NCBI GenBank assembly: GCA_017448965.1
Contig: JAFSKK010000039.1
Span: 1-54,104, forward strand
Length of the DNA: 54,104 nt
From: Bacteroidaceae bacterium
Lineage (GTDB): Bacteria; Bacteroidota; Bacteroidia; Bacteroidales; Bacteroidaceae
Direction: 5' to 3'
Below, piece after piece: positions 4,333 to 5,472 of the stretch. The notes beneath the pieces were generated by a model. It did not search any database and was not told the DNA's origin. It worked only from the letters and a program-made list of their open reading frames with translations. A program made the position numbers and the translations under genes. Each line of letters starts with the position of its first letter. Within the stretch, counting starts at the first letter, position 1.

Positions 4333-5472
4333 ATGGATACTCAGAAACCTTATGTGATAGGTGTTGACCTTGGAGGCACCAACACCGTGTTTGGAATTGT
4401 GGATGCACGTGGCAATATCGTGGCGGAAGATTCCATCAAGACGCAAGCCTATAAGACAGCCGACGCATTTGTGGAGGCGGGTGTGGTTTGTCTCAAGCCT
4501 CTCATCGAACAGGTGGGTGGCATCGACAACATTGCAGGCATGGGCATCGGGGCACCTAATGCCAACTACTACAGTGGCGCCATTGAGATTGCTCCCAACC
4601 TCTGTTGGGCACACGATTGTGTGGTGCCTCTTGCCCAGATGTTCTCAGAGAAACTGAGACCCTCTCTGTCCTGCGGACTTTCCCGTCCTCAGCAAGAGCA
4701 CTTGCTTCGGTCGCTCCCGGCAGAGAGACATTTAGTCTCTCCGCTTTTCGGTCGCTACCCCCGTAATGGGGAGAGCCATCCGGACGGTCTTCCTCCCCAT
4801 TACGAGGAAGGGCAGGAGAGAGGGGCCTTCCCCGTTCGTCTCACCAACGATGCCAACGCCGCCGCTATGGGCGAGATGGCATACGGAGCCGCTCGTGGCA
4901 TGAAGAACTTCATCGTCCTCACGCTTGGTACGGGTGTTGGCTCGGGTATCGTCATCAACGGCCAACTTGTCTATGGCCACGATGGTTTTGCAGGCGAATT
5001 GGGTCATGTCACTATGGTGCGTGGCAAGGAGGGGCGTCCTTGCGGATGTGGTCGTACCGGCTGCTTAGAGTCATATTGTTCCGCTACAGGTGTGGCACGT
5101 ACAGCACGTGAGATTCTTGCCAACACCGACCGTCCTTCGCTCCTGCGCAACAAACCAGCTGAGGAAATCGAGTCGCTCGATGTCTCCATTGCTGCCAGCA
5201 AGGGCGACGAGGTGGCCAATGAAATCTTCCAGTTTACAGGCAAGATGTTGGGTGAGGCCTGTGCCGACTTTGCCGCCTTTTCATCCCCTGAAGCCTTTAT
5301 TTTCTTTGGAGGCCTCTGCAAGGCTGGCGACCTCATCATGAAGCCCATCGAGGAATCCTACAATCAGCACGTCATGCCTATCTTCAGAGGCAAGGCCAAG
5401 TTCCTGGTCAGCGGGCTGATGAACGCCAATGCAGCCGTGCTGGGTGCTTCGGCATTGGGATGGGGTGAGTGA
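4333..5472 (+). CDS. ROK-family glucokinase/hexokinase with an in-frame insertion
   Basis: Phosphorylates glucose (or a related hexose) with ATP in the cytoplasm; the family includes the 326-residue ROK hexokinases of Bacteroides. The ATG at 4333 is chosen because it sits just before the phosphate motif VIGVDLGGTNT and about 30 nt after a promoter. The catalytic Asp lies in LTNDANAAAMGE, the ROK glycine motif in LGTGVGSGIVINGQLVYG, and the zinc site in GH...CGCGRTGCLE. All key parts are present. The protein is 379 residues, about 53-57 too long. The excess is one block between FSEKL and FPVRLTND, just before the catalytic Asp, encoded by a palindromic repeat (see 4660-4825). It is probably still translated, since the frame is kept, but activity is uncertain. 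Confidence 0.9.
   Translation: MDTQKPYVIGVDLGGTNTVFGIVDARGNIVAEDSIKTQAYKTADAFVEAGVVCLKPLIEQVGGIDNIAGMGIGAPNANYYSGAIEIAPNLCWAHDCVVPLAQMFSEKLRPSLSCGLSRPQQEHLLRSLPAERHLVSPLFGRYPRNGESHPDGLPPHYEEGQERGAFPVRLTNDANAAAMGEMAYGAARGMKNFIVLTLGTGVGSGIVINGQLVYGHDGFAGELGHVTMVRGKEGRPCGCGRTGCLESYCSATGVARTAREILANTDRPSLLRNKPAEEIESLDVSIAASKGDEVANEIFQFTGKMLGEACADFAAFSSPEAFIFFGGLCKAGDLIMKPIEESYNQHVMPIFRGKAKFLVSGLMNANAAVLGASALGWGE
4660..4825. repeat. Palindromic element inserted in frame in the kinase gene
   Basis: The block is bounded by near-perfect inverted ends, CCCTCTCTGTCCTGC (4660-4674) and GCAGGAGAGAGGGG (4812-4825). Inside are two further hairpins: GAGAGAC...GTCTCTC around 4724-4744, and CCCGTAATGGGGAG paired with CTCCCCATTACGAGG. 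It also contains the direct repeat CGGTCGCT. It adds about 55 codons without a stop or frameshift, and the codons read low-complexity Arg/Pro/Ser-rich protein unlike any ROK kinase. This resembles the protein-coding palindromic elements described in Rickettsia, but the sequence is not related as far as I can see. Confidence 0.8.

Follow-up and report, generated by a model that had tools for sequence, protein, structure and literature searches.

The window analysed here, a stretch of 54,104 nt from the genome of a Bacteroidaceae bacterium (contig JAFSKK010000039.1), contains a palindromic element that lies in frame within a gene for a ROK-family sugar kinase, as sequence comparison confirms. 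The block is probably a translated, non-autonomous MITE-like element, whose family would be mobilised by the DUF559 nuclease encoded by its longer relatives. At the level of sequence, the insertion into the kinase gene, the open frames and the number of copies are established, as are the ends shared among copies, the tight linkage of such ends to DUF559 genes and the co-variation of nuclease and ends.

The limits of the element were set by comparison with other copies in the same genome (Table 1). A previous interpretation made from the letters of the window without database searches (hereafter the sequence-only reading) had placed the block at 4657..4825; its start stands, whereas copy comparison moves its end three bases further, to 4828. 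The inverted ends and internal hairpins described in that reading could be located, and the element strand folds at -86.3 kcal/mol, compared with a mean of -64.4 kcal/mol for shuffled sequences (sd 4.7, n = 200; z = -4.6), none of the 200 shuffles folding as well. Searches against Rfam gave nothing above gathering score for the element, the two weak matches being to microRNAs (E values of 0.5 and 0.86). The sequence-only reading has to be amended in that the window copy is a long form, its left unit having ∼80 bp more than that of the common 97-bp form of the family. Its long left unit recurs in the congeners G036, G007, G003, G029 and G030.

Table 1. Positions of the kinase gene, the palindromic element and its parts in the window.
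Feature	Position	Strand	Basis
ROK-family sugar kinase gene, 379 aa, host of the element	4333..5472	+	Open frame, Pfam, solved relatives
Variable linker of the kinase, residues 107–166 (60 codons, 180 nt)	4651..4830	+	Orthologue comparison
Palindromic element, 172 bp, from AGACCCTCTC to GAGAGGGGCCT (family form GAGAGGGTCT)	4657..4828	+	Other copies in own genome
Left (A-type) unit, long form, ending in CCATCCGG	4657..4783	+	Comparison with congeners
Extra ∼80 bp within left unit, with two small hairpins, missing from common 97-bp copies	4680..4757	+	
Right (B-type) unit, inverted orientation, degenerate in the window copy	4784..4828	-	
Main hairpin, arms 4759–4773/4793–4807, bearing family motif CCNTAATGGGGAG	4759..4807		
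Inverted ends of the element (arms)	4661–4674/4812–4825		
Other internal hairpins (arms)	4720–4729/4735–4744; 4684–4696/4701–4713		

The kinase frame is open from the ATG at position 4333 over all 379 residues, so that the lengthened but intact protein proposed in the sequence-only reading is borne out; the translation matches the Pfam ROK family (2.7e-54), and its best solved relatives are the glucokinase chains 3vgk and 2qm1. Related records come from Bacteroidales, mostly uncultured, with ruminants named in many of them. Orthologous loci were resolved in 125 cases, from which L001 and L066 (repeats of one locus) and L095 (misaligned) were dropped. In 95 of the remaining 122 loci, among which genomes present under both handle and name enter twice, the linker consists of 4–5 codons (12–15 nt), as against 60 codons in the window kinase. 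Within the genus, linkers of 4–5 codons were found in 20 of 36 kinase loci and most others measure 6–20 codons, several of these being low-complexity DNA (CAACTCTCAACTC and similar). The block itself is confined, among the 122 loci, to the window and one congener (G016, locus L032; L102 has the same sequence), and it was not seen in orthologues of unrelated species. In the congener the linker, identical in L102, has 35 codons and represents a shorter version of the window repeat at the same site. Orthologue alignment upholds the insertion that the sequence-only reading had proposed, though not as a perfectly clean one: the linker has been remodelled and no target duplication is visible.

In the AlphaFold2 model of the kinase (34 sequences, mean pLDDT of 75.5), residues 111–163, between the helix at 100–108 and the strand at 168–172, have pLDDT below 50 and the remainder is mostly confident, as for a disordered loop carried by an otherwise folded kinase. 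In the NDAN motif, the catalytic Asp is residue 173. The linker seems to tolerate insertions, given that some of the loci L033–L045, L059, L060 and L092, which belong to other species, have unrelated inserts of 9–20 codons in it, often of low complexity and resembling CAACTCTCAACTC.

The assembly of the host genome (3.03 Mb in 74 contigs, 86% complete) yielded 92 DNA matches to the block at E≤10, nearly all of them partial (1–22, 102–127, 102–168 and 124–168), and 54 exact copies of the hairpin motif CCNTAATGGGGAG compared with none of the reversed pattern. Therefore, the block is not a product of chance. From the 34 stretches fetched, 31 copies were delimited and used; contig C44 (L195), which repeats the two copies of C31, a second single unit of L182 near 3183, and chance or other-family arms in L191, L200, L204, L207 and L212 were left out, and L210–L215 contained no delimited copy. 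The common form of the family, 97 bp in length, is built of two inverted hairpin units, AGACCCTCTC-unit-CCATCCGG followed by CCG..ATGG-unit-GAGAGGGTCT. The general layout is AGACCCTCTC...CCATCCGG, a short variable core, and CCGCATGG...GAGAGGGTCT, the two units of longer copies being separated by the variable core; solitary single units were also encountered (L186, L200, L203 and L207). Judged by DNA similarity, the family is present in 22 of 61 genomes (own included), all belonging to one genus, and judged by the motif in 24 of the 45 genomes of that genus. The search for further copies that the sequence-only reading had called for thus returned dozens in the own genome alone, within genes as well as in gaps. 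A second palindromic family (AGCCCCCCAGCCCCCGAAGGGGGAGGGC and its inverse) was observed in the same genome (L200, ∼1962–2078; L207, ∼462–572), and its copy in L200 shares the reading frame of Mfd with a copy of the window family.

A frame taken as that of the host gene reads through 22 of the 31 delimited copies. That all 22 are open is partly a matter of definition, a gene-breaking copy being scored as intergenic, and the other nine copies were taken as a group. The strong part of the in-frame evidence is provided by copies situated in or between protein domains. All 20 further host open reading frames scanned with Pfam (carrying 21 copies) match a family. Once the ROK kinase is counted in, 16 of the 22 copies are placed within a domain or separate two matched domains or stretches. 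The hosts of these 16 are the ROK kinase, DUF5107/TPR, CobJ/CbiC, PFL-like, MutS2 (C-terminal copy), GH88, ArsP, Mfd, MutY, RsmF, topoisomerase, two class I/II aminotransferases, CTP synthase (PyrG), MatE and CbiB. In the other six a Pfam domain is found on one side only (TPR, the first copy of MutS2, two HHH proteins, ComEC and a nucleotidyltransferase). The CobJ/CbiC copy (L187, 2526–2622) is part of one 507-codon frame spanning both domains, and its site may be the junction of two genes. A single codon phase is used by 16 of the 22 copies, and 15 of these 16 peptides start with xTLSP(T/A)LP. The possibility that open frames are built into the design of the repeat was also considered (the 22 intragenic copies have 82 of 132 frames open, where shuffles predict 54.2), but no such claim is made, an open frame being what intragenic copies are selected for. 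With 54 exact arms, 31 delimited copies and 22 in frame, the interpretation put forward from the letters alone, an in-frame repeat of the translated type in Bacteroidales, is supported. It needs amendment in one further respect, namely that the family is not an orphan: its relatives bear a DUF559 nuclease gene.

Besides the kinase, PyrG provides empty sites. It was searched in 36 relatives; 29 loci, own included, were resolved and L301 was left out. The PyrG loop spans 21–30 nt in 26 of the 29 and carries an insert in three, where it measures 111 nt (own), 129 nt (G016) and 168 nt (G003); the three inserts are different palindromic repeats, all in frame. The 97-bp own copy leaves 14 bases, compared with 27–30 in most other species, so that the net lengths are not those of an element that simply inserted and duplicated its target. 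Neither the own copies (inspected by eye) nor the kinase and PyrG sites, when compared with the sites of other species, showed a target duplication; none of the latter sites is near-identical to an occupied one. The PyrG loop of G013 (L295) is short and ends in CAGACCCTC, with which an element begins, and this may be a scar left when a copy was lost.

Among the 31 delimited copies a gene-sized core is present in one only (C65:19233–19763 of the own genome, 531 bp), and it encodes a DUF559 protein. Searching the genus with PF04480 gave 42 matches in 25 of 45 genomes, and removal of four weak matches inside large proteins left 38 loci. At each of these, the 450 bp preceding the DUF559 gene were compared with the 350 bp following it and the best inverted repeat was scored, with 2000 windows from the neighbourhoods of the kinase and PyrG genes serving as controls. 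The score exceeds the 99th control percentile in 28 of the 38 loci and the 95th in 35 (Mann-Whitney p = 7e-26); this test supersedes an earlier version, in which 22 of 28 loci were above its 99th percentile. At most loci the two ends match each other but differ from the ends of other loci. The window-family motif TAATGGGGAG (one mismatch allowed) flanks the gene on both sides at only three of the 38, located in G000, G036 and G034, which are the top three of the 45 genomes in motif count (54, 44 and 33; next 30), the counts taking in the arms of the nuclease element itself. Across 33 loci, similarity of the ends rises with DUF559 identity (Mantel rho 0.37, reached in 0 of 2000 permutations), with rho at 0.34 after pairs more than 90% identical were dropped. 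Over the genus, the correlation between DUF559 presence and copy number is weak: matches occur in 8 of 10 genomes with at least 10 copies versus 14 of the other 35 (Fisher p = 0.035, Mann-Whitney p = 0.053), the copy-rich genomes without a match being G005 (65% complete) and G067.

At 10 of 33 genus loci the DUF559 frame takes in the upstream end. In the G036 element the frame passes from the B end (KTLSPALPHNGEG) into DUF559, and the commonest in-frame reading of the repeat, TLSPTLPRNGEG, is the same as this reading. In four genomes (L205, L217, L235 and L241) DUF559 elements adjoin the start of a gene that resembles leuC in translation.

Residues D68, E79, H85, R97 and R110 are among those invariant in 42 aligned DUF559 domains, a pattern expected of a PD-(D/E)XK nuclease. 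The DUF559 profile matched the solved chains 3hrl (7.8e-37) and 3r3p, the homing endonuclease I-Bth0305I (1.9e-7), and Foldseek searches with the AlphaFold2 model (pLDDT of 82) pointed to the same two structures (E values of 2.1e-7 and 6.5e-4, respectively) and more weakly to Vsr (0.036). DUF559 is thus predicted to be a small PD-(D/E)XK nuclease that shares its fold with Vsr and I-Bth0305I, and by fold and catalytic residues it fits the Vsr-like, or EDxHD, homing endonucleases. The cited parts of the literature describe a Vsr-like DUF559 protein of Caulobacter that is required for the SOS response of a cytosine-methyltransferase mutant (PMC12907096), and an EDxHD homing endonuclease family that includes a DUF559 gene (PMC9403480). 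A recurrent motif of the approximate form T-A-(S/D/N)-x-x-x-Y was observed ahead of the DUF559 domain in the open reading frames of L217, L229, L235, L265, L281 and L330, whether the copy is free or embedded in a host protein.

Beyond the genus, 247 genomes of the phylum were sampled, and 138 of them have a DUF559 match. When 30 phylum loci were compared with 177 local control windows, inverted repeats exceeded the 99th percentile (34) at 14 loci and the 95th (27) at 22, eight remaining below the latter. Twenty-seven long DUF559-bearing open reading frames were also scanned; they were picked for length, 10 being taken from the 13 longer frames of the first 30 loci and 17 from elsewhere, and provide no rate. 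All 27 also match a host family: leucyl-tRNA synthetase (LeuRS) in seven, restriction-modification methylases in five, HsdR in four, MetH and RecG in three each, UvrD-like proteins in two, and HsdM, methylmalonyl-CoA mutase and a GATase_5 glutamine amidotransferase in one each. The DUF559 domain is located inside or between matched host domains in 23 of them; in the other four (L257, L269, L346 and L354) the host domain is one-sided, DUF559 being C-terminal in L269. Peptides encoded by the palindromes (SPSPKEKGA, PLPLGEDLGEGK) border many of the host-embedded DUF559 domains, and no intein domain was detected in the Pfam scans of the 27 frames. In LeuRS the in-frame domain occupies two distinct sites in seven genomes (L258, L261, L349, L356, L344, L345 and L348). 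In RecG it is found at one and the same place in three genomes (L352, L353 and L355), with worn flanking peptides, and perhaps represents an old, inherited insertion.

Of 38 DUF559-matching records from plasmids of other phyla, 12 were examined. Four of these loci (three from Deinococcus and one from Azospirillum lipoferum) beat every local control window (25 each), three (Picosynechococcus, Sphingomonas and Qipengyuania) have palindromes that match on both sides without exceeding the best local control, and five have no convincing flanking palindromes. On the three Deinococcus plasmids (L319, L320 and L321) DUF559 sits between palindromes at three different places of one hpa gene group.

According to the explanation that we favour, the element inserted into the flexible linker of the ROK kinase and would be translated as a disordered loop. 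Longer relatives have one DUF559 gene where the short forms have a short core. The nuclease would recognise those hairpin ends that belong to its own type and introduce a break or nick through which element DNA gains access to new sites; no target duplication would arise, and a few target bases would often be lost. Intragenic copies would then persist only when the frame is kept. We infer that the longer kinase product is made and that DUF559 is the mobiliser, and the chemistry suggested above is of the same standing. Several results count against this explanation: DUF559 presence and copy number are only weakly correlated over the genus, the copy-rich G005 and G067 have no DUF559 match, eight of the 30 phylum loci stay below the 95th percentile, and only four of the 12 plasmid loci have flanking inverted repeats that beat their local controls. 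Moreover, a lone 120-aa nuclease is not a known transposase.

The same family could have been spread by other means. DUF559 might be a passenger or parasite, its gene homing into the repeats or riding between units that another enzyme moves. This would agree with the solitary single units, which indicate that units can spread without the gene, and with the description of I-Bth0305I-type enzymes as homing endonucleases in the cited part of PMC3943268; nevertheless, the nuclease and the ends co-vary in the Mantel analysis, the nuclease residues are conserved and no other gene-sized core exists among the 31 copies, all of which makes the passenger role rather unlikely. Somewhat less credence still is given to a classical MITE whose DDE-type transposase has since disappeared or escaped detection, the assembly being incomplete. 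Terminal inverted repeats, high copy number and a size of 97–170 bp are what such a MITE would display, and the own assembly is only 86% complete, yet no target-site duplication was seen at the own copies or at the kinase and PyrG sites, and the gene recurrently found between such ends is DUF559 (the loci having been chosen for DUF559 and the transposase search having covered Y1 only).

A REP/BIME-like repeat moved by a RAYT (Y1, HUH) transposase is improbable. BIMEs likewise consist of two inverted palindromic units and a variable linker, but Y1_Tnp has no match in the own genome, and the copy-richest genomes G000, G036 and G034 are absent from the 14 of 45 genus genomes that pass the Y1 cut-off. 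RAYT was accordingly rejected as a mobiliser: the match over the genus is poor, with G036 having a hit only below the cut-off and G034 none. It is very hard to credit that ribosomes bypass the transcribed insert, as they do in gene 60 of phage T4 and at the inserts of Magnusiomyces mitochondria, or that it is removed as an intein. Bypassed inserts are known (cited part of PMC5009743), but skipping needs no open frame and 16 copies in or between Pfam domains stay open and in frame; the Pfam scans of the kinase, the copy hosts and the DUF559 hosts contained no intein domain. Ordinary protein variation, for which the variable length of the kinase linker in the genus, partly due to unrelated low-complexity DNA, might be invoked, or an assembly artefact can practically be dismissed, being already refuted by the copies: the family is found at ∼31 places of the own assembly and in 24 of 45 genus genomes, and the congener (L032, L102) has its shorter version at the same kinase site.

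Mobilisation by the DUF559 nuclease of longer relatives remains our preferred reading, and a wider proposal can be attached to it tentatively, in which we place slightly less than even confidence. DUF559-bearing elements could constitute an undescribed class of mobile elements, consisting of a Vsr/I-Bth0305I-like nuclease and self-matching palindromes, which insert without target duplication and can be translated unspliced within host proteins, essential ones included (LeuRS, MetH, RecG and HsdR), and which by internal deletion would have given rise to the translated palindromic repeats of Bacteroidales, perhaps also to those of Rickettsia. Reports of such repeats date back to 2000 and concern mainly Rickettsia, and the cited passages of that literature name no mobilising enzyme for them. 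Among the open-licence matches listed, no title or opening of an abstract dealt with such elements in Bacteroidales or with DUF559 together with palindromic repeats. The family described here supplies a candidate enzyme together with ends that match it, occurs in a phylum amenable to laboratory work, and includes many natural insertions for which empty sites are available. If the proposal is true, it would give a common function to DUF559, matched in 138 of the 247 sampled phylum genomes, and would show how conserved proteins can acquire new loops, or even an entire nuclease domain, from mobile DNA.

Several known systems share features with the window family. In REP/BIME repeats and their RAYTs, enzyme and repeat evolve together. 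The window family resembles them in having two inverted palindromic units and a variable linker, but the three copy-richest genomes are without a RAYT over the cut-off and many copies are intragenic and open. DUF559 is like the I-Bth0305I/Vsr-like (EDxHD) homing endonucleases in its profile match to 3r3p and in its modelled fold, whereas the DUF559 element differs from the I-Bth0305I type in that no intron or intein domain was seen, its gene is placed between palindromes and it has short multicopy relatives. ERIC and the Correia/NEMIS MITEs are likewise small and non-autonomous, and in-frame fusion of such repeats with genes can occur, according to the cited part of PMC2229807; the window family differs in that target duplication was not observed, genes contain 22 of the 31 delimited copies and the ends go with DUF559. 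The Rickettsia palindromic elements (RPE), as described in the cited parts of PMC10969869 and PMC2229807, are ∼100–150 bp long and inserted in frame in many unrelated conserved genes; in the latter source their target duplication carries a question mark. Like them, the window family is palindromic, has terminal inverted repeats and occurs in frame in many unrelated conserved genes (22 of 31 copies), its common form of 97 bp and the 172-bp window copy corresponding to the RPE type of palindrome (∼105–150 bp, inverted ends). It is set apart by another phylum and sequence context, a modular build of two units and a variable core, and a nuclease-bearing relative whose ends match. Judged by these described features, the window element appears to work like an element of the RPE kind, in Bacteroidales.
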